Positions 2,002-49,066 of a stretch of DNA of 64,000 nucleotides are shown piece after piece (the stretch's first letter is position 1; each line of letters opens with the position of its first letter). Position numbers and translations under genes: made by a program. Under the pieces are notes generated by a model, which saw only the letters and a program-made list of their open reading frames with translations, ran no database searches and was not told the DNA's origin. Origin of the DNA: Caldithrix abyssi DSM 13497 (GTDB lineage Bacteria; Calditrichota; Calditrichia; Calditrichales; Calditrichaceae); the NCBI RefSeq assembly GCF_001886815.1, contig NZ_CP018099.1:4028501-4092500 (forward strand), written 5' to 3'.

Positions 2002-2471
2002 TCAGTAAGCAGTATGCAGTATGGAGTATGGAGTATGGAGAATGGAAAATTTGTTTAATAACAGAACTTTTGCGGATTTTCAATCATTGAAGAAAGCATT
2101 CTTGCTACTTCATCATATTTTTGGATAAAATATTTATATTTTTCTTTGGTCTTATAATTCAAGTCTTTTGAATAATCTAACCAAACTTCTGTTTCTGATT
2201 CTTCTGATAATAAATCGATAAGCTTACTAACAAATGACTTGGGATACTTTCTCTTTCTCCATGCTTCAGCTATATTTGCCGGGACTGATCGGGAAGACCT
2301 TCTTATTTGGTCTGTCAATGAATACAATTCTTCTTTTGGAAAATTTTTAGTTAAATCGAAAATTTCAAGAAATAATCGATAAGATAATTGGTATACCTTT
2401 AAATCTCGAAATCCCCTATACCCCATCCTCCTTACTCCTTACTCAATTCTCCCTACTCCATACTGCCTACT
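2002..2471 (-). mobile_element. Putative IVS-like element A: four-helix-bundle gene between inverted arrays
   Basis: The left arm (2002-2046) is a run of cagtatggagtatggag-type quasi-repeats. The right arm (2428-2471) is the inverse kind (cctactccatactgcctact). They are imperfect inverted repeats of about 44 bp that enclose only the four-helix-bundle gene. The right arm also codes the last residues (KVGSME) and TAG stop of the neighbouring deacetylase. A transcript could fold the arms into a stem with the ORF in the loop, as in 23S rRNA intervening sequences. Calling it mobile is inference. Confidence 0.45.
2055..2426 (-). CDS. Four helix bundle protein (23S rRNA intervening-sequence protein family)
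   Basis: Protein of 123 residues in the family known as four helix bundle or S23/IVP proteins, first seen as ORFs inside 23S rRNA intervening sequences and structurally related to Avd of diversity-generating retroelements. The family pattern is clear: FRDLKVYQLSYRL at the N-terminus, then LTDQIRRSSRSVPANIAEAW in the second helix, then a variable C-terminal half. The molecular function is unknown; nucleic-acid binding is often proposed. It is the only gene between the two arms of element A. Related copies in this window are at 3537, 38099 and 46557. Family assignment is confident. Confidence 0.9.
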   Translation of the reverse strand: MGYRGFRDLKVYQLSYRLFLEIFDLTKNFPKEELYSLTDQIRRSSRSVPANIAEAWRKRKYPKSFVSKLIDLLSEESETEVWLDYSKDLNYKTKEKYKYFIQKYDEVARMLSSMIENPQKFCY

Positions 2472-3472
2472 TTAACGATTCCCCATTTAACTATGTTCTT
2501 CACATTCTGCCAAACCAACTCTTTCACCCACAAAACCGGATCATCCGTCCACCTCTGCGGATGCACCGTTATCATGGCCTTTTGCGGAAATTTCTCTTCT
2601 TCAACAGCTTTGATAATCTCAATCGTTTTTCTAAAACGTGGCCACTTCCCACTCGTCACGCGTAACTCGTTACGCGTCACTTTATCTCCCTCCTTACTCC
2701 CTACTCCATACTCCTTACTGTTTACTAAATTCTGCCTACTGCCTACTGCATATTGCCTACTGTCCACCTTATCCCTCACACTAACAGAATTCCCATCCCA
2801 TCTCCTACCAGTGTCCGTATAATACGCAAATTCCGTAAAATCGATATCAAAATACGGTTCACCGATAATCCCTAATTCCCGATAATCGTATTTACTCCAG
2901 ATCAATTTATTGTCATATTTCGATCTTGGAGACCCATGCATACAAATGGTTTTTATATCAAAATTTTTCCGAAACATCTCCAAATTTTCACAAAAACTCT
3001 CATACGCCGCATCGATTAATTCATCTTTTTGCAACTCATAATTCGTAATTCGTAATTCGTAATTTTTAATTGCAAGGTCCACATCCTCATAATGATAACC
3101 AATCTCATGCCCTAATTCGGCAATCTTATCCATTATCTGCAGGTCATAACTTTCAGGTACCACACGGAAATAGTATGTTCCTTGTATGCCCAGCTCATGT
3201 TCAATAATTGCTGTTTGTAAGGCGTTTTCAGGGATGCGGTCCACATCGTGACGGAGAATGATTAGTTTAGAGGGGGAGAAGTTTAGAAGTTTAGAGGTTG
3301 AGGTGTTTAGAGGTTTAGATATGGAGGTTGAGGTGTTGAGGTGTTGAGGTGTTGAATTGGCTGTTTTTGTATTCGATAATTTACGGATATAATTATGGAA
3401 GGTTGTAAATTGGAATTGGTTTTTTATAAAAGTTTGAAGCAGGTTTTGAAATATTTTTAAGGTAAAATCCAT
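2453..3472 (-). CDS. Polysaccharide deacetylase-like protein carrying in-frame repeat arrays
   Basis: A 339-residue protein with a NodB-type deacetylase signature: LRHDVDRIPENAL (metal-binding His-Asp) at about residues 73-85, then GTYYFRVVPE, GHEIGYHYEDVD and a late ITVHPQRWTDD motif. Such enzymes remove acyl groups from polysaccharides; a lone DUF-type relative in glycan loci is also possible. Three parts of the protein are translated from short-repeat arrays: residues about 39-70 (STSISKPLNTSTS type), 135-147 (NYELRITNYELQ) and 236-275 (SRQYAVGSRQ, KEYGVGSKEG, RNELRVTSG). The reading frame stays open through all of them. The C-terminal KVGSME and stop come from the right arm of element A. 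It may be functional with tolerated loops, or decaying. Confidence 0.7.
   Translation of the reverse strand: MDFTLKIFQNLLQTFIKNQFQFTTFHNYIRKLSNTKTANSTPQHLNTSTSISKPLNTSTSKLLNFSPSKLIILRHDVDRIPENALQTAIIEHELGIQGTYYFRVVPESYDLQIMDKIAELGHEIGYHYEDVDLAIKNYELRITNYELQKDELIDAAYESFCENLEMFRKNFDIKTICMHGSPRSKYDNKLIWSKYDYRELGIIGEPYFDIDFTEFAYYTDTGRRWDGNSVSVRDKVDSRQYAVGSRQNLVNSKEYGVGSKEGDKVTRNELRVTSGKWPRFRKTIEIIKAVEEEKFPQKAMITVHPQRWTDDPVLWVKELVWQNVKNIVKWGIVKVGSME
2648..2765. repeat. Three juxtaposed short-repeat arrays inside a gene
   Basis: Three array types lie end to end within the deacetylase gene: a cgtcacgcgtaactcgttac type, a ccttactccctactcc type and a tgcctactgcctactgc type. The last two match arms of element A only 200 bp away. 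All keep the host reading frame open. Confidence 0.8.
3032..3070. repeat. aattcgtaattcgt array inside a gene
   Basis: Tandem 9-bp-type repeats (attcgtaattcgtaattcg) inside the deacetylase gene, translated as NYELRITNYE. The same array type lies at 33265-33303 and 44305-44375 in intergenic DNA. Confidence 0.8.
3264..3357. repeat. tttagagg / gaggtgttg array inside a gene
   Basis: Runs of gaagtttagaagtttagagg followed by gaggtgttgaggtgttg within the N-terminal part of the deacetylase gene, translated as a Ser/Thr/Leu/Asn-rich linker before the catalytic HDVD motif. Related arrays lie in the intergenic gaps at 1952-1983 and 5063-5118. Confidence 0.8.
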
Positions 3473-3502
3473 GTTTCATGTTTAAAAGTTTAGGAGTTTG
3501 AT

Positions 3503-3980
3503 GTTTAATTGTTGAGTTGTTTATTTGTTGAGTTGTTTATTTGTTTATTTGTGATTTGCGTAAAGAATTCAACTGATTGGAAATTTCATATATTTTTAAT
3601 TTTAAATCATTAAAAATTTTTTCATTAATATATTTCAAATCTAAAGCAAGATAAAAATGACTTAAAACTTCCATTAAACTGCTATAAGAGATATTAGTAA
3701 AATGAGCTTGATCTTTAGATGATAATCTTGAACTTCCTTCTGCAATATTCGCAGGTATTGAAACTGATGCCCGCCTTATCTGATCAATTAGACCAAATCT
3801 TTCATGCTTTGGAAACTTATCGGTTATTTGATAAACTTCCAACACAAATTTTCTCGCATTCTGCCACACCTTTAACTTCTCAAAACTATATTGATATTCT
3901 TTGTGCATAAATTCAAATATGTAATCTTTCGATCAACTAAACAAATAAACAACTCAACAGCTCAACAACTAAACAACTCA
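3503..3980 (-). mobile_element. Putative IVS-like element B: four-helix-bundle gene between inverted arrays
   Basis: The left arm (3503-3551) is made of gttgagttgtttatttgttg units. The right arm (3934-3980) is the inverse, aacaactcaacagctcaac. They pair as an inverted repeat of about 47 bp enclosing one gene. The left arm encodes the last codons and TAA stop of that gene (QINK). The right arm begins 6 bp after the stop of the DUF354 gene. The array sequence is unrelated to that of element A, though the layout is the same. Confidence 0.45.
3537..3908 (-). CDS. Four helix bundle protein (23S rRNA intervening-sequence protein family)
   Basis: 123 residues, same family as the gene at 2055 but clearly diverged. 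The diagnostic block is FEKLKVWQNARKFVLEVYQI, then LIDQIRRASVSIPANIAEGS and SLMEVLSHFYLALDL. The final residues QINK and stop are encoded by the left arm of the flanking array, so its 3' end is part of the element. It is in the same orientation as the polysaccharide genes. Function unknown. The ATG at 3908 starts the family N-terminus (MHKEYQYSFEKLKVW). Confidence 0.9.
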   Translation of the reverse strand: MHKEYQYSFEKLKVWQNARKFVLEVYQITDKFPKHERFGLIDQIRRASVSIPANIAEGSSRLSSKDQAHFTNISYSSLMEVLSHFYLALDLKYINEKIFNDLKLKIYEISNQLNSLRKSQINK

Positions 3981-3985
3981 AAAAT

Positions 3986-33229: not shown

Positions 33230-33303
33230 GTAGTTCGTGCCTTAGGCCTCCCGCTCCGCGTTATAATTCATAATTCATAATTCAAAATTCGTAATTCGTA
33301 ATT
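33230..33303. repeat. cctcccgctccgcg + aattcataattc array
   Basis: Array of aattcataattcataattc units, preceded by cctcccgctccgcgtta. The same pairing occurs at 44290-44375. It overlaps the 3' end of the gene at 33302 and provides its stop codon (TTA on the plus strand). The rest of the 33107-33301 gap shows nothing else. Confidence 0.7.
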
Positions 33304-33868
33304 AACTTAAAGTTTCCTCTCCCGTGGTAATATTACCCGGCTTGTCGCTTACTTTAATTACGATTTTGTCTCCGGCGGTATCGGTATTGTCAACCGTACA
33401 GGTATAAACCCAATCCAGTCCGTTGTCCTGCAATACGGCGTCGCCTTCTTCCACCAGACTGCCGTCGCTATTGTAGATTTCCACATGCACCTGAACGACT
33501 TTAAAATCATCCACCGCGCGCACGCGAATGGTGTCGCCCGCTTTGCCGGAATAATTCGTTACGTCAATTTCATCGATCTGCGGCGCATGTAAAAAATCGG
33601 CCACTGCCACATTATAACCGGTTTTCAAACCTTCGGCCTTCGCTTCATATTCCGCTTTCGTATCAGGATCAGCTATCGCCTGCTTGCCGTAGATAATGGC
33701 CTGTTGAAATTTTTGCTGCTGCGCTTTCTGGGCCTCACTGGGTTCGCCCGTGCGCTTGCCCGGCGCCTGAGATAAAATCACTTCTCCGCCCCGCTGACGG
33801 ATAACAATCTGGTCTCCGATTTTACCGGAAACGCCGTACAGGATTAAGTTTTTCCCGGCCTTAGCCAT
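33302..33868 (-). CDS. Conserved hypothetical protein
   Basis: 188 residues from ATG 33868 (MAKAGKNLILYG), which has a strong aaggagg Shine-Dalgarno; a TTG 6 nt upstream is unlikely. N-terminal block VSGKIGDQIVIRQRGGEVIL and SEAQKAQQQKFQQAIIYGKQ is followed by a helix-rich EYEAKAEGLKTGYNVAVADF and a C-terminal Ig-like half (IDVTNYSGKAGDTIRVRAVD, VSDKPGNITTG). I do not recognise a named family with a function. GC content is higher than the genes on both sides. The last residues and stop come from the array at its 3' end. Confidence 0.75.
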   Translation of the reverse strand: MAKAGKNLILYGVSGKIGDQIVIRQRGGEVILSQAPGKRTGEPSEAQKAQQQKFQQAIIYGKQAIADPDTKAEYEAKAEGLKTGYNVAVADFLHAPQIDEIDVTNYSGKAGDTIRVRAVDDFKVVQVHVEIYNSDGSLVEEGDAVLQDNGLDWVYTCTVDNTDTAGDKIVIKVSDKPGNITTGEETLS

Positions 33869-34203
33869 ATTCAATCCTCCTTATTTTGCGTCGTCCTCAC
33901 AGCCTGATTCCCTGAAGACCGCAAAGCCTTCTACTGCAAGAACGCACGTCAACTTTATTTAATTATGGAATCAGCGATTGGACGCCGTCCCTGGTAATAT
34001 AAATAAAGCGCCGTAAAGTGAGGATTAAACAGTCATCCGCTAAAGCTTTTTTTCCTTTTCTTTTTGTCCCATATCGTATCTTTTATTTATTTTATATTTT
34101 TTATTTAATCTTCAATCTTTTAATTCATCATCTTCAAATACAAAATTGACCAAACAATCTTCCTATTTTGTATTTTTTATTTTATATTTACTATTTGAAA
34201 ACT
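33869..34203. other. Intergenic stretch with a TA-spacer array
   Basis: The first half, upstream of the conserved hypothetical gene, holds that gene's leader. The second half (about 34070-34200) is a pyrimidine-rich array of attttatattt and aatcttcaatctt units that recurs between the toxin-antitoxin modules to the right. No gene seen. Confidence 0.6.
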
Positions 34204-34575
34204 TTACGTCGTATAAAGAACTATCTGCGTTTCGCTAATAGATTTCAATTGCTGATCTGCTGTAATTAATGGAATGTTTAAAAATTTTCCGGTAGCTACT
34301 ATAATAGCATCTGGTAATTTAATTCTTCGTTTTTTCCTTAAATCGATTACAAAATCTTTTATTCTCTTATTAATATCTATTATAATTACGTCATCAAGAA
34401 ATCCTTTAATTATTTCTTCTTCTTTTTCAGAAAGTTTTTTAAAGCTCAATAATTCTAATTCAGAAATAAAGGAGAGAAATATTTGATTTTGATCCAGGAT
34501 ATCTGCAATCCGTTCGTCTCCGGCTAATAAATAGATAGCGATATTGGTATCTATTAAATATCTATTTCCATTCAT
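34204..34575 (-). CDS. vapC: VapC-like PIN domain ribonuclease toxin
   Basis: 123 residues. PIN fold with the metal-binding acidic residues: YLIDTNIAIYLLAGD at the start, SELELLSF (Glu), KLPDAIIVATGKFLNIPLIT (Asp) and TADQQLKSI (Asp). VapC toxins cleave tRNA or rRNA. It overlaps a 54-residue upstream gene by 14 nt, which is the usual antitoxin position, and the ATG follows an antitoxin-encoded gaatgg. Target unknown. Confidence 0.88.
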   Translation of the reverse strand: MNGNRYLIDTNIAIYLLAGDERIADILDQNQIFLSFISELELLSFKKLSEKEEEIIKGFLDDVIIIDINKRIKDFVIDLRKKRRIKLPDAIIVATGKFLNIPLITADQQLKSISETQIVLYTT

Positions 34576-34726
34576 CTCTTAATCGTTTTTGTATTTTTAA
34601 AGGATCTTCTTCAATTTTTAAAATTCCACAATATTTTTTTGCATCTAATCCCTTTAAAGTGATTTGATTAAGCTTCCTTATATATGTTTGTTTTCGATCT
34701 TTTTTTGTAATGGTAATTGTTTTCAT
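34562..34726 (-). CDS. Putative VapB-type antitoxin (54 aa)
   Basis: Short reading frame of 54 residues starting MKTITITKKDRKQTYIRKL and ending KIQKRLRDEWK. Its 3' end overlaps the start of the PIN toxin by 14 nt, the standard order for VapBC. It is basic at the N-terminus (possible DNA-binding strand) with a C-terminal tail that could wrap the toxin. I see no clear named DNA-binding family. The call relies on position, size and codon pattern. Confidence 0.65.
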   Translation of the reverse strand: MKTITITKKDRKQTYIRKLNQITLKGLDAKKYCGILKIEEDPLKIQKRLRDEWK

Positions 34727-34858
34727 TGTATCGTCAATTCTCAGTTTACATCTTTATTTATTTTTTAATTTTTCATCTTTAATCTTTAATCTTTAATCTT
34801 ATTTCTTTTTATTTTGTATTTTTTATTTTGTATTTTATCTTTTTTCTCTAATCTTATT

Positions 34859-35074
34859 TTACGCATAGAGCAATCGCCCTTTAGGAGTCGGAATTTCTCG
34901 CCCCAATTTTTTAGCGGTTTCTATCCATTCCATTATTACAACTTTAACATTTTTTACCGCATCTTCATAAGTTTTTCCGTCAGCCATACATCCTGGTAAT
35001 TCAGGCACTTCAACAATAAATGCTTTATCTTCTTCACTCCAATAAATTATTAATTCATAAGGAGGAATACTCAT
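34859..35074 (-). CDS. hicB: HicB-family antitoxin
   Basis: 71 residues with the HicB partial RNase-H-like fold: YELIIYWSEEDKAFIVEVPE, LPGCMADGKTYEDAVKNVKV and a basic C-terminus. It lacks a C-terminal helix-turn-helix DNA-binding domain. The gene overlaps the upstream HicA gene by 4 nt (ATGA), so they are co-translated. It neutralises HicA and probably represses the pair. Confidence 0.9.
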   Translation of the reverse strand: MSIPPYELIIYWSEEDKAFIVEVPELPGCMADGKTYEDAVKNVKVVIMEWIETAKKLGREIPTPKGRLLYA

Positions 35075-35352
35075 ACTAATTCTCCCATATTGTATTTTAA
35101 AATTAAATTTCTTATTTGTTTAACTTGATAGGCCTTTGCCTTTCCATTCTTCAATGCCTGAATATTAATTATTTCTTCAATCCCTTCTTTATAAAAAATA
35201 TAGTGATCTCCTTTTATTCTTTGGGCGAATCCAAGAGTCTTCAATAAACCACATAAATCATTAAATTGAATATTGGAATATTGGAATCCGAAGTTCCAGA
35301 TAGTATTTTGTTTAATATTTTCTTTTTCTTTGTTAAATACTTTCCTTGACAC
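35071..35352 (-). CDS. hicA: HicA-family mRNA interferase toxin with array-derived insert
   Basis: 93 residues. The dsRBD-like HicA core is IQFNDLCGLLKTLGFAQRIK, GDHYIFYKEGIEEIINIQAL with the catalytic His in GDH, and YQVKQIRNLILKY. HicA cleaves mRNA. Ahead of the core lies an N-terminal stretch including IWNFGFQYSN, encoded by gaatattggaatattggaat-type repeats; in relatives I would expect a short linker here, so the stretch looks like an in-frame array insertion. Confidence 0.87.
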   Translation of the reverse strand: MSRKVFNKEKENIKQNTIWNFGFQYSNIQFNDLCGLLKTLGFAQRIKGDHYIFYKEGIEEIINIQALKNGKAKAYQVKQIRNLILKYNMGELV

Positions 35353-35773
35353 TTAGGTAGTGTTTTATAATTATTGTCTCTTAATTATTTCAGGAAAACG
35401 CAATGGTCTATTTACTCAAATATTTAACATTATAATATTAACAATCAAATTTTTGCTTGTTGAATCGTTGAAACGACGACTTTTTCGTTTATCCCATTTC
35501 TTTATTCTCGCTTTAATGTCTCAACTAATTGTTACGCTTTACTTTGTTACCTTTTAGTGTCTGCGGTTTACCGCGCTAGGATAGGGGAGTGATTTCAAAA
35601 ACTATTATATTTCAACAGAAAAATTCAAAAGTCTTTCACGAAAATCCTTATTAATTTCTTCATTTTTCATTTTTCATTTGTCATTTGTCATTTATCTTTT
35701 TTTCTTTAATCTTTAATCTTTCATCTTAATTCTTTCATCTTAAAATTACTTTTTTCTTTCTTAAACTTTACTC
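35353..35773. other. Intergenic stretch between TA modules
   Basis: No gene is supported. The right half (about 35660-35760) is a pyrimidine-rich array with tttcatttttcatttgtc and aatctttaatctttcatc units, of the type found between the other modules. The left half is unremarkable AT-rich DNA; a 65-codon plus-strand frame there looks spurious. Confidence 0.6.
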
Positions 35774-36007
35774 TCAAATAGGATAAACATTCTCAAAATT
35801 TATTACCTGTGCAGCATAGAACAAGGCCGCATTAATATCCATCTGTTTCAAAAAAGGATATTGTTTCAATATTTCTTCAATAGATGTTCCATAAGCAATT
35901 TTTTCAACAATAATTGAAACCGGTAACCGCGTCCCTTTGATAACGGGCTTTCCTAACATTATATTAGGATTTATTTCTATTCTATCCATCAAATTTTTAT
36001 TTTTCAT
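35774..36007 (-). CDS. DUF433 domain protein (antitoxin partner)
   Basis: 77 residues of DUF433 (PF04255), a small helix-turn-helix-like family. Motifs: DRIEINPNIMLGKPVIKGTR, LPVSIIVEKIAYGTSIEEIL and FLKQMDINAALFYAAQVI. DUF433 genes are commonly paired with DUF5615 PIN-like genes; the pair is regarded as a toxin-antitoxin unit. It overlaps the upstream DUF5615 gene by 4 nt. Confidence 0.9.
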   Translation of the reverse strand: MKNKNLMDRIEINPNIMLGKPVIKGTRLPVSIIVEKIAYGTSIEEILKQYPFLKQMDINAALFYAAQVINFENVYPI

Positions 36008-36372
36008 TTAATATCTCCTAAAGGTCTAATACGTATTTTTTTATCGGATAAAACAATAAAATTAAGTTCTATTTCTTCTAAATGTAAATCGATTAACTTT
36101 TTTAATACTTTTAATTTTTTATTAACATCTTGCCCTTTTATACGTAATAATATAATCCCTTTAGATACTTTCCTTTGATAAAAAACAATTTCGCCAAAAT
36201 CTTTATCATTAGTAATAAGCACTCTACCTTCTTTATTTGCAAGGAATAATAATTCATCATCTTGTAATTTACAATTATAATCAGGTATCCAGAGAACATC
36301 AAAACCCTGATTATTTAGAAAATCTACAATATCTTTTTCAACATTTACATCAGCAATAAATTTAATCTTCAA
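36004..36372 (-). CDS. DUF5615 PIN-like protein (putative toxin)
   Basis: 122 residues, the DUF5615/Mut7-C-type PIN-like fold: KIKFIADVNVEKDIVDFLNN, GFDVLWIPDYNCKLQDDELL, GRVLITNDKDFGEIVFYQ and KGIILLRIKG. The acidic residues in ADVN, DDE and TNDKDFG correspond to the PIN metal site. It is coupled to DUF433 by a 4-nt overlap. Ribonuclease activity is expected from the family, not seen here. Confidence 0.88.
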   Translation of the reverse strand: MKIKFIADVNVEKDIVDFLNNQGFDVLWIPDYNCKLQDDELLFLANKEGRVLITNDKDFGEIVFYQRKVSKGIILLRIKGQDVNKKLKVLKKLIDLHLEEIELNFIVLSDKKIRIRPLGDIK

Positions 36373-36447
36373 AATATTTTAATTTATCTTTTTTGTCTTT
36401 TGTCTTTGATCTTTAATCTTTAATCTTGTTTCTTTATTCTTTTTAAA

Positions 36448-37634: not shown

Positions 37635-38079
37635 AATTTCGAAATCCTAAGCACGAAACCATAAACAATACTTAATTACCAAAAATTCAAATCACCAAAA
37701 CTTTTAACACAAACATGTTTCGAATTTCGCTCATTTTGATTTTGAATTTGTTTAGAGATTAGATATTCGAATTTCGGATTTTTTTTAATTTCAAAATCCT
37801 AAGCACGAAACCATAAACAATACTTAATTACCAAAAATTCAAATCACCAAAACTTTTAACACAAACATGTTTCGAATTTCGCTCATTTTGATTTTGAATT
37901 TGTTTAGAGATTAGATATTCGAATTTCGGATTTTTTTTAATTTCAAAATCCGAAGCACGAAATCATAAACAATACCTAATTACCAAATCTCAAATCACCA
38001 AAACTTTCAACACAATGATGTTTTGAATTTCAGTCATTTGGATTTTGAATTTTTTTAGAGATTTGGATTTTTTAATTTC
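37635..38079. repeat. Three tandem copies of a 152-bp partly palindromic repeat
   Basis: Copies begin at 37635, 37787 and 37939 (spacing exactly 152 bp). The first two are essentially identical apart from the first bases; the third is shorter (about 135 bp) and diverged. Each starts aatttcaaaatcctaagcacg and ends with tattcgaatttcggatttt, which is roughly its inverse, so a unit could fold on itself. Partial copies lie at 38548-38625 and 39524-39650. Confidence 0.85.
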
Positions 38080-38507
38080 AAATTTTGTATTTATTACCTT
38101 ATTTTTTATTCTCAACTTTCCTTAATATAGCTCCAAAAATACTCATCAATTCTGTTGCTTCATTTTCTAAATCGATTCTTTCTCTTTCAAGCTCATCTTT
38201 ATTCTGTGTATCAATTAACCTAAGCCAATAGCGACTTTCCTTAGCCTCTTTTCTACAAATCTTTATTCTCATTAAAAAATCTTTTTTGCTTAATGCTTCA
38301 TTTGCTTCAATGTAATTTGCTCCAACTGAACCTGAAGATCTTATTAATTGCTTTCCATCCTCTATATTTGATATTGTTTTATTCAATTTTTTAACCAGAG
38401 CTCTAACATTTTTAGCAAATAAATGTGTTCGATCTTCAAGGTCATATTGGTTTGATTTTCCAGAAGAAAACATAATTTTTAAAATATCGAAATTCTAAAT
38501 AAATTCT
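38047..38507 (-). mobile_element. Putative IVS-like element C: four-helix-bundle gene between inverted arrays
   Basis: The left arm (38047-38075, gaatttttttagagatttgg) and right arm (38479-38507, inverse of gaatttatttagaatttcg) form an imperfect inverted repeat of about 28 bp around the gene at 38099. The left arm is at the same time the end of the third 152-bp tandem copy. The layout matches elements A, B and D but the sequence differs. Confidence 0.4.
38099..38473 (-). CDS. Four helix bundle protein (divergent subtype)
   Basis: 124 residues, same family as the other three copies but a distinct subtype: YDLEDRTHLFAKNVRALVKK, QLIRSSGSVGANYIEANEAL, KKDFLMRIKICRKEAKESRY and WLRLIDTQNKDELERER. 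The GANYIEAN block replaces the PANIAEG of the other copies. Function unknown. It lies between 152-bp-type repeats and the HepT/MntA pair. Confidence 0.88.
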   Translation of the reverse strand: MFSSGKSNQYDLEDRTHLFAKNVRALVKKLNKTISNIEDGKQLIRSSGSVGANYIEANEALSKKDFLMRIKICRKEAKESRYWLRLIDTQNKDELERERIDLENEATELMSIFGAILRKVENKK

Positions 38508-38547
38508 ATTTATTATAATTTAAATAATGATAAAAACCTATAACTTA

Positions 38548-38625
38548 AGAACGTTTTGAATTTCGCTCATTTTGATTTTGAATTTGTTTAGAGATTAGAT
38601 ATTCGAATTTCGGATTTTTCGATTC
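38548..38625. repeat. Partial 152-bp-type repeat
   Basis: Contains aacgttttgaatttcgctca, ttttgaatttgtttagagat and tattcgaatttcggattttt, the second half of the 152-bp unit, in the same orientation. It separates the four-helix-bundle gene from the HepT gene. Confidence 0.8.
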
Positions 38626-38685
38626 CGAGCTTCTATATTTAACATTCCCAATTCATCAATCCATGCTACTATTCACCGTGCACTA

Positions 38686-45003: not shown

Positions 45004-45113
45004 AGGAGTTTCCTTTCTATGATTAATAGTTGAATAGTTGAATGGTTGAATTCGTTCTCTGTTTGCTAAAATTTTCGGTATGTAAAATTGCTTTCGAAAC
45101 TGTTTCATTTTTA

Positions 45114-46401
45114 GGCTCTACTGGGATTCCTGTGGAAAAAGGTCTAATTTACCAAGAAAGAAAAGTATTGCTATCCTAAAATTTTCAAATTTTCTAAAGC
45201 CTCTACCAACTGTTTTTATCTCCTGTATCTTGCCGTTCAACCATTCGGCTACTGAATTATCTATCTGATATCTTATATAGTTTAATAAGCCATCTGAATG
45301 AGCAATGAGCATTTTTGCTACTTTAATCATTTTATTTAAAGAACGTCCCTTAATATCCTGATACCATTCCGCAAAAAAGAATTTCGCATCATTTATTGTT
45401 TCACTCCTAAAGAATTCTTTGAAGTTCTCTTTGGCCGCCCAAGCCTGGGAAGTGATAAGGTTAAGTTCTTGAATTTTTCTGAAACGCGATAATTGCTTGT
45501 CCGTCATATTTTCCGGATTCTTTAAAAATAAATATTTACTTTTCACTAAGGTTTTATCATTAGATTTTTGTAATTTACGGGCTTCCTCTCGTCTGGTTTT
45601 ATCCACTCCATCATTTAAATACTTCATTATATGAAATTTGTCATGCACTATGGAAGCATTGGGAAGCTCCTTTTGAACAGCTTTAATAAAAGCTTTCCAC
45701 ATATCCATACTGACCGCTTTGAGGCCCTCCTTTTGTTTCTCTGTTAATCCCTTGTTTATTAAGGAACTGGCAGAGCTTGTTGTGCGACCTTCACTTACAT
45801 CTATTACACGTCTTCTTTCACTATCGGATAATACGCTTACATAAGTATGACCTCTTTTCATACTCTTCTCATCTATCCCGATATATTTAATGTCCTCTTC
45901 CGTTCGGCGTGATAGCCCGCGTTCCACTGCTTTGCTCATTATATGATGAAGCATATCAAAGCTGATCCGTAAAAATTGTGCCGTTTTGCTCTGGTTTTTG
46001 GAGGCCAGTAATAACTCAATAGCAAAACGTTCAAATAATAAAGTCGTTCGACTCGACTTTTCTGCCCAAGGAACTTTGATCGTTTTTACTCCGTGTTCCT
46101 TGCATTTAATGCGGGGAACTTTGCAGACAATATAGGTCTTCATTTGGCATGTATCCAAATGCCGCCAACGACGTTTTTCGCGATGATCATAAATATCATA
46201 TTCCACTTCGCATTCGGGACAAAAACCTTTTTTTGACTTATAGATAATCTCTATTTCTACTTCCTCATTCGCAATATCTAAGTCAACTTTAGACACTTCC
46301 CAGGGATGCGAAAGTCCCAAAATCTGTTTAAATAATTCTTTATCTTTCATAAACTCAATCTAAGGATTATTTTTGTTTTTCACAAAAATCCCAGTAGAGC
46401 C
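45114..46401 (-). mobile_element. Complete ISL3-family insertion sequence (1288 bp)
   Basis: Terminal inverted repeats: GGCTCTACTGGGATTCCTGT at the left and the inverse of GGCTCTACTGGGATTTTTGT at the right. Both ends are flanked by the 8-bp direct repeat CATTTTTA (45106-45113 and 46402-46409), the length expected for ISL3. It carries one intact transposase gene. It lies between the acetyltransferase leader and a four-helix-bundle gene. The perfect duplication points to a recent insertion. Confidence 0.93.
45118..46350 (-). CDS. ISL3 family transposase
   Basis: 410 residues, full length. An N-terminal zinc-ribbon region (GFCPECEVEYDIYD with later Cys in HLDTCQMKTYIVCKVP) is followed by a helix-turn-helix and the DDE_Tnp_ISL3 core: IKYIGIDEKSMKRGHTYVSV (first Asp), AVSMDMWKAFIKAVQKELPN (second Asp), VHDKFHIMKYLNDGVDKTRR and a C-terminal VAEWLNGKIQEIKTVGRGFR (Glu). 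No frameshift. The end FFLGKLDLFPQ lies next to the left inverted repeat. Confidence 0.95.
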   Translation of the reverse strand: MKDKELFKQILGLSHPWEVSKVDLDIANEEVEIEIIYKSKKGFCPECEVEYDIYDHREKRRWRHLDTCQMKTYIVCKVPRIKCKEHGVKTIKVPWAEKSSRTTLLFERFAIELLLASKNQSKTAQFLRISFDMLHHIMSKAVERGLSRRTEEDIKYIGIDEKSMKRGHTYVSVLSDSERRRVIDVSEGRTTSSASSLINKGLTEKQKEGLKAVSMDMWKAFIKAVQKELPNASIVHDKFHIMKYLNDGVDKTRREEARKLQKSNDKTLVKSKYLFLKNPENMTDKQLSRFRKIQELNLITSQAWAAKENFKEFFRSETINDAKFFFAEWYQDIKGRSLNKMIKVAKMLIAHSDGLLNYIRYQIDNSVAEWLNGKIQEIKTVGRGFRKFENFRIAILFFLGKLDLFPQESQ

Positions 46402-46556
46402 CATTTTTAATTTATTTTTCATTTTAATATGATTTAAATCTATTTGATTTTAAAACTTGAGAATTGGTCTAAATTTATTTTATTCAATTTAAAAGGATAT
46501 TTTAAAAAAAACCAATTTAAGTTTTGTGTAAATATAAAGAATTAAGCACAAAGGAA

Positions 46557-46937
46557 TTAATTACCTTTAGTATTTTCCCTGCCGTTTAAATATTTTATAA
46601 ATTGATTTATCATTTTTATATTTGTGTATATAATATCTTCAATCTTTTTAAAACTTTCTTCCTTAATAAAATTTTGATCTTTACATGTAATTAGATGATC
46701 CAATAATTCATACAAGGAGCCCCTTGCCATTCTCAAAAATTGGATGTTTTCTTTAAAATGATATCTTCCAAATCCTTCAGCAATATTCGCTGTTACTGAT
46801 ATGGCTGCTCTTTTCATTTGATCTATAAGCACGAATTTTTCTTCTCTGGGAAGTGTTTTACATAGCTTGTAGATTTCTATTCTTATTTCCCTACCTTTTT
46901 TCCAGACGTCAAGATCTGTAAAACTTGTTATTTTCAT
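46557..46937 (-). CDS. Four helix bundle protein (23S rRNA intervening-sequence protein family)
   Basis: 126 residues from ATG 46937 (MKITSFTDLDVWKKGR), with aggagggga 5' of it; an ATG 24 nt upstream lies in the repeat array. Family blocks: LDVWKKGREIRIEIYKLCKT, LIDQMKRAAISVTANIAEGF, RYHFKENIQFLRMARGSLYE. Fourth copy in the window, inside element D. The array upstream places its start directly beside the end of the glycosyltransferase gene. Confidence 0.92.
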   Translation of the reverse strand: MKITSFTDLDVWKKGREIRIEIYKLCKTLPREEKFVLIDQMKRAAISVTANIAEGFGRYHFKENIQFLRMARGSLYELLDHLITCKDQNFIKEESFKKIEDIIYTNIKMINQFIKYLNGRENTKGN

Positions 46938-46981
46938 CTCCCCTCCTACCCAACCATTCAACTATGCAACTATTCAACCAT

Positions 46982-49066
46982 TCAACCATTCCTCTCTCCC
47001 CAAACCGCCTTCATCAATAGCTCCAGGTCCATAAACAAACCCTGGTTTTTAATGTAGTGTGCTTCGTAGGTCTCGCGCATCTCGTCGTCGGTGATTTTTT
47101 CTCTGTTTAATTGCACAATGCCCGTTAAACCCGGTTTGTAGTCATAAATGGGCGCTTTTTTATGGTCGGATGTCATGGGCGCGCCGACAAAAGAAATTTT
47201 GCCGGCCAGAATGTTTAATAGATTCAGCGTAAAACGCAATCCCTTTTTGTCTGCGGTTAAAACGGGAATCTCTTTGCCGCCCTGGCCGATCAGCGTTTTT
47301 TGGGCAATGCGTCCTGCGCCTGTTAACACATTCCACAAATGGAAGGGCAAAAGAACAATCAACAACAACAGGGCCAACCCCAGATCAAACAGCCGTTTAA
47401 TGATTTTATTGAACGGTTTTCCATAGCCAAACTCAATATCCACCAGCGGCAGGGCGTCCAGGCGCTCCACATTGGACTTGCCGATCATAAACTCCAGATG
47501 ATCGGGCACCATCTTAAACTCGATGTCCGGCCTCTGCACTCTGGACATGGTAGTTAAAATTTCCTGAAACGACAGATGGTGGGTTGTGAAGATCACCAGA
47601 TCAATGCGATTTAAGCGAATATATTCAGGCAAATCTTTAAGCGTGGTTACCACCGGTATTCTTTTCAAAGATTTGCCCACATCCTTTCGCTCAAGCGCGG
47701 CCAGTCCCAGAATTTTAATGCTTGAAGTCACATACTTCTGCAGTTTTTCCAGCAATTTCCGCGTCTCCGAATCAAAACCGACGATGATCGTGCGTTTTAA
47801 AAAGTAATCGCGACTCAAAGCCGACGTGGTCTTGCGGCGTAAGGCGCGCAAAAGAATACGCCACAACACCATGGCCATCATACTTCCCACGGCCGAAACC
47901 ACCACCACAAATCGAGAAAAAGCAAATTGCTTAAAAAAGAAAGTCAAAGCCGAAACAAAGGTAAAAGTGGTCAACGTGGCCTTAATAATCTTGCTCACCG
48001 AAAAGCGATCGCGCTTAACCGTTTCGAAAAACAGGGCGGACAGAAAAAAAGCGACGGTGGTGATCAGATTGATGATGATATATTGATTAAAAAAATCGTT
48101 AAAATGAAATCCGCCGCGCAGCTCGTAACGAATCCAGAAATTAACAAAAAGAATCAGATTCAACAGCCCCAGATCGATCAACAACGGATAATAGAGCTCC
48201 AGATTATTTTTGATAAAAATCATGATTCCGCGCAATATAGTGCCCAACACAATTAGCCATTTAAAAGGATACACATAGCGCTTTTGGTAATGCTTTTTGT
48301 AGAATTTGTAAAGCGATTTATTAAAGGTAATCACATAATCCAGGTTGTATTTTTTAGTGCTCTCGCCCTTGTAATGAATGATCTGCGAATCCGGCACGTA
48401 AAAAATTTTGCCGCCGGCCTGATTAATACGGTAGCAGTAGTCGATGTCCTCGCAGTACATAAAAAAGTCTTCGTCTAATTTGCCCACCTTTTGCACAATC
48501 TCGCGGCGCATCATCATAAAAGAACCGGAAATCGCTTCCACCTGGTAAGTGTCATTCTCGTCAAGATAGGTTAAATTGTACCTGCCGAAGATTTTGCTTT
48601 TAGGAAACAGACGCGACAGGCCGGTTACCTTCCAGAAGGCCGTTAGCGGCGTTGGAATGCTGTGCCGGCAGTCGATGGAAAAGGTGCCGTCCGGATTGAT
48701 GATTTTACAGGTGGCGGCAGACGCTTCCGGCGTGCGTTCAAAGAAATCAAGCAATTTGCTGAACGTATCCTCCTGCACAATCGTATCGGGATTAAGCAGC
48801 ACGATAAACTTTCCGCGGGCTATTTCCAGCCCCTGATTATTGGCGGCCGAAAACCCGACATTCTTTTTGTTTTCGATTAAAATCACCTCGGGGAAACGAC
48901 GGCGCACCATCTGCACCGAATCATCCACCGAAGCGTTATCCACTACAATGACTTCCGACGAAATGTCTTTTAAAGCGCGCTGCACCGAGAGCAGAGTCTG
49001 CTCCAGAAACTCCCGCACGTTAAAATTGACAATGATGACCGAGATTTCTACTTCTTCTGTCTTCAT
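46982..49066 (-). CDS. GT2 glycosyltransferase fused to a degenerate sugar-phosphate transferase module
   Basis: 694 residues. Residues 1-250 are a GT2 rhamnosyltransferase-like domain (ISVIIVNFNVREFLEQTLLS, SEVIVVDNASVDDSVQM, LLNPDTIVQEDTFS, FFMYCEDIDYCYR). Then 4-5 membrane segments, a nucleotide-binding-like domain (TIIVGFDSETRKLLEKLQKY) and a C-terminal bacterial sugar transferase-like part (YKPGLTGIVQLNREKITDDE). In that part the catalytic Asp-Glu of monotopic phosphoglycosyltransferases (SLDELPQLWNVL type) is Arg-Phe (FTLNLLNIL context). The stop comes from the array of element D. It overlaps the next gene by 4 nt. The GT2 part should be active; the rest is probably structural or regulatory. 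Confidence 0.85.
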   Translation of the reverse strand: MKTEEVEISVIIVNFNVREFLEQTLLSVQRALKDISSEVIVVDNASVDDSVQMVRRRFPEVILIENKKNVGFSAANNQGLEIARGKFIVLLNPDTIVQEDTFSKLLDFFERTPEASAATCKIINPDGTFSIDCRHSIPTPLTAFWKVTGLSRLFPKSKIFGRYNLTYLDENDTYQVEAISGSFMMMRREIVQKVGKLDEDFFMYCEDIDYCYRINQAGGKIFYVPDSQIIHYKGESTKKYNLDYVITFNKSLYKFYKKHYQKRYVYPFKWLIVLGTILRGIMIFIKNNLELYYPLLIDLGLLNLILFVNFWIRYELRGGFHFNDFFNQYIIINLITTVAFFLSALFFETVKRDRFSVSKIIKATLTTFTFVSALTFFFKQFAFSRFVVVVSAVGSMMAMVLWRILLRALRRKTTSALSRDYFLKRTIIVGFDSETRKLLEKLQKYVTSSIKILGLAALERKDVGKSLKRIPVVTTLKDLPEYIRLNRIDLVIFTTHHLSFQEILTTMSRVQRPDIEFKMVPDHLEFMIGKSNVERLDALPLVDIEFGYGKPFNKIIKRLFDLGLALLLLIVLLPFHLWNVLTGAGRIAQKTLIGQGGKEIPVLTADKKGLRFTLNLLNILAGKISFVGAPMTSDHKKAPIYDYKPGLTGIVQLNREKITDDEMRETYEAHYIKNQGLFMDLELLMKAVWGERNG

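Follow-up and report, generated by a model that had tools for sequence, protein, structure and literature searches.

S23 genes between inverted 7- to 8-bp arrays: a probable mobile unit inside and outside rRNA genes

We propose that the S23 gene (PF05635), together with the inverted short-repeat arrays on its two sides, probably forms one mobile unit, the S23 element, which measures 440-540 bp in the gaps that we studied and would move with the help of its ring-forming protein. Judged by comparison of genomes, the unit is shown to be present or absent as a whole at orthologous positions, unrelated S23 lineages occupy one and the same gap, and the arms are specific to each locus and follow the S23 lineage. 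In the open-access literature that we searched, S23 flanked by inverted arrays is nowhere described outside rRNA. PF05635 genes are widespread, and their usual annotation, 'four helix bundle protein' or 'S23 ribosomal protein', comes with no function. A link of S23 with arms, with unoccupied sites, with derivatives that lack the ORF and with scattered arrays would assign a role to the family, and it would explain the origin of many 7-8-bp intergenic arrays. The origin and movement of the intervening sequences (IVSs) of rRNA, an old question, would become directly testable, and mobility without a transposase or a reverse transcriptase, if confirmed, would mean that DNA can spread by a novel route.

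The S23 genes of the window and their arrays

The window is a stretch of 64,000 nucleotides (positions 4028501-4092500) of the complete, 4.98-Mb chromosome of Caldithrix abyssi. It contains four PF05635 genes, designated A to D, which all pass the curated cut-off of 33.8 bits (112.3, 135.9, 49.4 and 123.8 bits); the whole genome has nine PF05635 matches, eight of them above the cut-off. The elements of the window sit between protein genes and none lies in an rRNA gene. Their features, in window coordinates, are as follows.

2003..2050, minus strand: 3' arm of element A, a 7-bp-period array inverted relative to the 5' arm
2055..2426, minus strand: element A, S23/PF05635 four-helix-bundle CDS, 123 aa (PF05635 E=1.6e-32)
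2427..2471, minus strand: 5' arm of element A, a 7-bp-period array of AGTAxGG units
2690..2767, inside ORF 2453-3472: array of the A-arm unit type, with no S23 gene belonging to it
3033..3071, inside ORF 2453-3472: solo AATTACG array, with the motif of the arms of another S23 element of the same genome (L004)
3277..3355, inside ORF 2453-3472: solo 8-bp-period array
3502..3552, minus strand: 3' arm of element B, an inverted 8-bp-period array that overlaps the final S23 codons
3537..3908, minus strand: element B, S23/PF05635 CDS, 123 aa (E=7.3e-40)
3934..3984, minus strand: 5' arm of element B, an 8-bp-period array (GTTGAGTT/GTTTAGTT)
37700..38671: ~151-bp direct repeats surrounding element C, partly palindromic, not simple inverted arms
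38099..38473, minus strand: element C, a more divergent PF05635 CDS, 124 aa (E=5.9e-13)
45025..45051, minus strand: 3' arm of element D, an inverted array, with an insertion sequence (IS) between arm and gene
45114..46401, minus strand: IS of 1.29 kb within element D (transposase ORF 45118-46350)
46557..46937, minus strand: element D, S23/PF05635 CDS, ATG at 46937
46951..46991, minus strand: 5' arm of element D, an 8-bp-period array (GGTTGAAT)

The preliminary description of this DNA had placed a 123-residue gene between inverted arms at 2002-2471, and this is confirmed for element A. Its arms are 77-83% complementary across 36-47 nt in inverse orientation, and their local alignment scores 30, as compared with a mean of 12.1 and a maximum of 22 over 1000 shuffles (z=7.9). 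In the 5' arm, AAGGAGG stands immediately ahead of the S23 start codon. The same layout had been claimed for all four members: it is clear for A, for B (z=6.0 against shuffled flanks) and for D (z=8.3 once the 3' arm beyond the IS is included), but not for C, which lies in direct repeats and whose inverted signal (z=5.1) comes from these AT-rich, partly palindromic ~151-bp repeats. It is likewise correct, for A, B and D, that the element sits precisely at another gene's 3' end; in A (GAGTAG) and D (GGTTGA), the upstream ORF even takes its stop codon from the array. Arm sequences vary among loci and agree within each locus, again as described.

Element D at first seemed to have a 5' arm only, because the IS separates the gene from its 3' arm. 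This IS, which we take to be of the ISL3 type, was inserted later and has ends of its own (GGCTCTACTGGGATT/AATCCCAGTAGAGCC) and an 8-bp duplication (TAAAAATG, at 46402-46409 and 45106-45113). The alternative TTG start of the D gene in the ORF list, at 46961, falls within the array. No transposase gene is found between the arms of A and of B, where S23 stands alone, and the element protein gave no match to Y1 (HUH) transposases, PF05635 and bAvd being its only matches.

The ORF upstream of A (2453-3472), which has no Pfam match, terminates within the arm of A and contains at least three in-frame arrays, with the peptides NYELRITNYELQ, SKPLNTSTSKLL and DSRQYAVGSRQ. These in-frame arrays suggest that coding sequence has also been invaded by short arrays. 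Near the start of the window, at 113-1429, there is an ORF for a Tn5/IS4-type transposase (PF02281, PF14706, PF01609).

Inverted arms across the S23 family

For 140 S23 genes with usable flanks, the 5' flank was aligned locally to the reverse-complemented 3' flank, and the best score was set against those of shuffled sequences. The genes cover many phyla and were drawn from 40 genomes of the phylum, from 84,980 species genomes that were scanned and from further loci. The preliminary description had predicted a family-wide excess of inverted flanking complementarity, and it is borne out: with starts set by rule, flanks taken partly from MAGs and counts from related genomes that are not independent, 67% of the S23 genes have inverted flanks at z>3, against 2% of control genes of the same loci, and 56% against 0% at z>4. 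Likewise, a score of at least 20 is reached by 50% of true arm pairs, by 1.7% of mismatched pairs and by 10% of flanks in direct orientation. About a third of the 140 genes are without significant arms at z>3. Strong 7- or 8-bp periodicity is found in 64% of the 5' flanks and 54% of the 3' flanks, as against 3% of random control stretches. The units are of 7 bp, less often of 8 bp, with a median per arm of 4.7 (5') and 4.5 (3'), and in 90% of 159 elements the coding strand of the 5' arm is rich in G. Altogether, the mismatched-pair, control-gene and period controls exclude chance or low complexity as the source of the arms.

Arms reach significance in no fewer than 13 named phyla, among them the archaeal Methanobacteriota, represented by a MAG. 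Within the phylum of the studied genome, PF05635 is present in 36 of the 40 genomes, with up to 14 copies, and only three S23 relatives were seen in viral contigs. At three loci (L046, L059 and L069, one of them cyanobacterial), long direct repeats flank the S23 gene, replacing or adding to inverted arms, with direct scores of 80, 78 and 129.

The likeness of the arms at unrelated sites rises with the identity of the S23 proteins. Indeed, similar arms are found in 0.6-1.3% of pairs below 50% amino acid identity, in 32% of pairs at 60-70% (n=25) and in three of the four pairs (75%) at 70% or more. The base composition of related hosts may add to this likeness, hardly however at the size observed. 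The arms track the S23 lineage across genomes, which rules out that they are merely background repeats of each genome. The closest non-self S23 paralogs of a genome are usually 37-53% identical in amino acids, with one case of 68%, which indicates that there was no recent burst; a recent amplification of the element was not seen and is rejected.

Occupied gaps, empty gaps and arrays without a gene

Orthologous gaps in Flavobacterium provide the comparison of empty and filled sites. Site 1, a gap behind an upstream ORF that ends in ..GFEENWN, was read in 93 genomes. It holds S23 with its arms in 41 of them, where it measures about 470-540 nt; it is short in 50, from bare gaps of 18-60 nt through ORF-less hairpins, and in the two others it is longer and contains a decayed S23. 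Significant hairpins are present in 23 of 45 S23-negative gaps. A tree built from the downstream gene requires 16 changes of the main S23 label, at least eight of them forced by well supported branches (this is a single-gene tree and the figures are approximate). At least two S23 lineages entered this same gap. The arm sequence varies among species, and arms nevertheless match their own partner: the score is 20.5 with the own partner and 14.5 with permuted partners (sd 0.67; maximum of 5000 permutations 16.9).

Site 2, the fadJ-fadA gap, gives a similar picture. Its bare states are 4 and 5 nt long, full units measure 443-522 nt and belong to at least two lineages with different arms, and there are further states with decayed copies or with one or two ORF-less hairpins. 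Even in genomes whose FadJ is 100% identical to the query over its C-terminal 197 residues, the states differ: the gap is bare in G098, holds S23 in G041, one hairpin in G060 and two hairpins in G097. The preliminary description had made its proposal depend on gene and arrays coming and going together, and at both sites the unit is indeed either whole or missing, with the qualification that ORF-less hairpins and solo arrays exist besides. No target-site duplication could be defined, the gaps being too short and too divergent to align.

The same gaps carry another family of hairpins, of the CCCCAACCCTCTCCAAAGGAGAGGG or CCCCCTAGCCCCCAAAGGGGG type (L195, L200, L210, L215 and others at site 1; L362 and L372 at site 2), as if the two gaps were general landing sites for hairpins.

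S23 elements are also found inside other structures. L006, an S23 gene of the studied chromosome, lies within the sole 23S rRNA gene, with five CAAGG-type heptamers on its 5' side and five CCTTG-type heptamers on its 3' side, and L035, found in a relative, agrees with it in arms and in the rRNA sequence on either side; no empty copy is available for comparison with L006, whose genome contains no second 23S gene. In Coxiella, GACAGAT heptamers precede the S23p ORF of the IVS, which is excised by RNase III (PMC4990558). The arms of L006 and L035 and the heptamers of Coxiella argue that the classical IVS is of the same nature as the intergenic units: when it bears an ORF, the classical IVS of 23S rRNA would be the S23 element in one of its habitats. 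The gaps and the two copies in 23S genes thus support the earlier idea of an IVS-like mobile unit outside rRNA; they do not show that the unit moved out of rRNA. The rRNA genes look like a minority habitat, one among many. Another S23 gene (L007) lies in a CRISPR array, alongside ORF-less copies bearing the same arms. At L265 (G000:C1:2539000-2543500), the S23 element and ORF-less copies, at about 1260-2330, each follow a truncated CRISPR repeat; these repeats end after GTCTCAATCCCCTCTGAATAACGGGG and have lost TACTTTCCGAC and the spacer.

The ORF-less hairpins and single arrays are in part related to resident S23 elements. In three genomes (G097, G053 and G105), those of the fadJ-fadA gap share their motif with a resident S23 that, judged by position, lies roughly one gene further downstream; in G060 and G094, the motif is borne by none of the resident S23 genes that were fetched. 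At L091, the motif of an ORF-less hairpin is that of an S23 element at another site. A survey of 360 kb of the studied genome, away from its own S23 genes, found 18 solo arrays, 14 of which fit the arms of resident S23 genes better than 95% of random S23 arm sets do, chiefly with the motifs of element D and L004. Two further genomes gave 1 of 1 and 6 of 13 solo arrays that matched arms of resident S23 genes. None of the solo arrays in the 360-kb sample has a clear inverted partner.

Since arrays are found without a gene, the S23 gene could instead home into them. The tandem arrays and hairpins would then be an independent class of repeats, and S23 genes, tied to such arrays by their protein, would enter hairpins that carry their motif, at the loop. 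This would fit the abundance of ORF-less hairpins and solo arrays, the significant hairpins in about half of the S23-negative gaps at site 1, and the hairpin of L091 that shares its motif with a distant S23 element. Against it, arms track the S23 lineage across genera and bare gaps are found beside filled ones, and the solo arrays sampled, being without an inverted partner, do not look like ready-made landing loops. We therefore regard this order of events as unlikely.

A second possibility is that S23 is an ordinary resident gene of operons. Its arrays would be cis-regulatory, acting through autoregulation by the protein or through processing or insulation of the operon mRNA, their complementarity would stem from template-switch repair, and what looks like mobility would be ordinary horizontal transfer. 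Such a gene would be expected to show the purifying selection and sense orientation described below, its paralogs are old and divergent, and an array is often near or over the S23 start. It would hardly account for 16 presence/absence changes at one gap, for two S23 lineages in one gap, for insertions within 23S rRNA and a CRISPR array or for dispersed arrays with related motifs, and it seems to us improbable. A mobile S23 element is the reading that we prefer.

The S23 protein, a model of movement and known systems

The S23 protein is under purifying selection, with a median dN/dS of 0.13 over 145 pairs, which argues that it is more than a filler in an RNA. Its closest solved structure, 2gsc, has five chains, and S23p of Xanthomonas is a homopentameric toroid (PMC4990558). 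On these grounds, we favour a ring that reads repeated units of 7-8 nt; such a ring-reading model is inferred from the number of units and the oligomeric state. We suggest that the pentameric ring would read its own array as single-stranded nucleic acid, with roughly one 7-8-nt unit per subunit. Both ends would be bound through the same motif and so be paired by S23, and the segment with its arms would be copied by replication or repair enzymes of the host into a gap that tolerates it. Acting likewise in trans, S23 may disperse hairpins without an ORF and single arrays, much as has been proposed for RAYT proteins and the REP/REPIN repeats. The insertion would be near-harmless, being in sense between co-transcribed genes and forming a hairpin in the transcript that is perhaps cut by RNase III, as in rRNA. 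Moves would be rare, given the age and divergence of the copies that share a genome.

It is also conceivable that the element acts at the level of RNA. The arms would be an RNA stem, RNase III would cut the stem-loop, and any movement would pass through RNA and cDNA, with S23 as an Avd-like helper of a reverse transcriptase. Indeed, PF05635 resembles Avd and the IVSs of 23S rRNA are substrates of RNase III (PMC10053308, PMC4990558). The predicted RNA folds of A and B pair their arms (z=-5.4 and -5.5); strongly paired DNA of any sort, however, folds well as RNA. Antisense insertion is rare, with 124 units in sense and 8 in antisense; the ratio for ordinary short operon genes is 141:18, and the sense bias of S23 is not clearly stronger. 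An RNA stem should tolerate G-U pairs, yet among the arm mismatches G-U is not enriched over A-C (225 vs 273), and selection on the arms as an RNA stem is thus unsupported; the same recognition motif at both ends would explain complementary arms without it. Finally, the complete chromosome contains no RVT_1 protein, nor do 25 of the 40 genomes of the phylum, most of which have S23 (36/40). This speaks against a resident reverse transcriptase, and movement by one is rejected for the studied genome. Altogether, we think an RNA-level element decidedly unlikely, and keep to the S23 element with a ring-forming protein.

Such an element would share with the rRNA IVSs of Leptospira and Coxiella the protein family, a single sense ORF, complementary ends and a similar size. 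It differs from them in that most S23 copies are here between protein genes, in its locus-specific 7-8-bp arrays that track the S23 lineage, in the existence of ORF-less derivatives and solo arrays, and in the absence from its arms of the G-U signature of an RNA stem. The Avd/bAvd proteins of diversity-generating retroelements belong to the same fold family, and the protein of element A reaches 35.4 bits against bAvd, below the curated cut-off of 40; in contrast to these retroelements, the whole genome is here without a reverse transcriptase. Like RAYT/REPIN and MITE systems, one gene is accompanied in the same genome by related, dispersed hairpins or repeats without ORF; unlike them, S23 is neither a Y1 nor a DDE transposase, and its ends are short tandem arrays with no fixed terminal sequence. 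Finally, the lack of a transposase between the arms of A and B and of near-identical copies per genome sets it apart from an IS or DNA transposon.

Two kinds of known repeats resemble the arrays described here, being 7-bp-period intergenic arrays scattered through genomes. One kind is the STRR heptamers of cyanobacteria. For the TAACTGA repeats of Beggiatoaceae, a repeat-binding protein has been considered as the mobile part; S23 is not mentioned in that paper, which reports no link to it (PMC4679880).

It is quite possible, if somewhat less than probable, that S23 elements represent a new class, in which a non-catalytic ring protein would read the 7-8-nt units of inverted tandem arrays and recruit host enzymes, by which units with the gene, hairpins without an ORF and solo arrays would all be spread; many bacterial heptamer and octamer arrays would originate from it, and the rRNA IVSs would be copies that have landed. 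TRAP, a ring of 11 subunits that reads spaced RNA triplets, resembles it by model only, in that the subunits of a ring would each read roughly one of a series of evenly spaced motifs; it has no homology to S23.

Further arrays occur in the window at 33263-36442, where several A/T-rich arrays of 7-bp period are clustered between toxin-antitoxin-like small genes.
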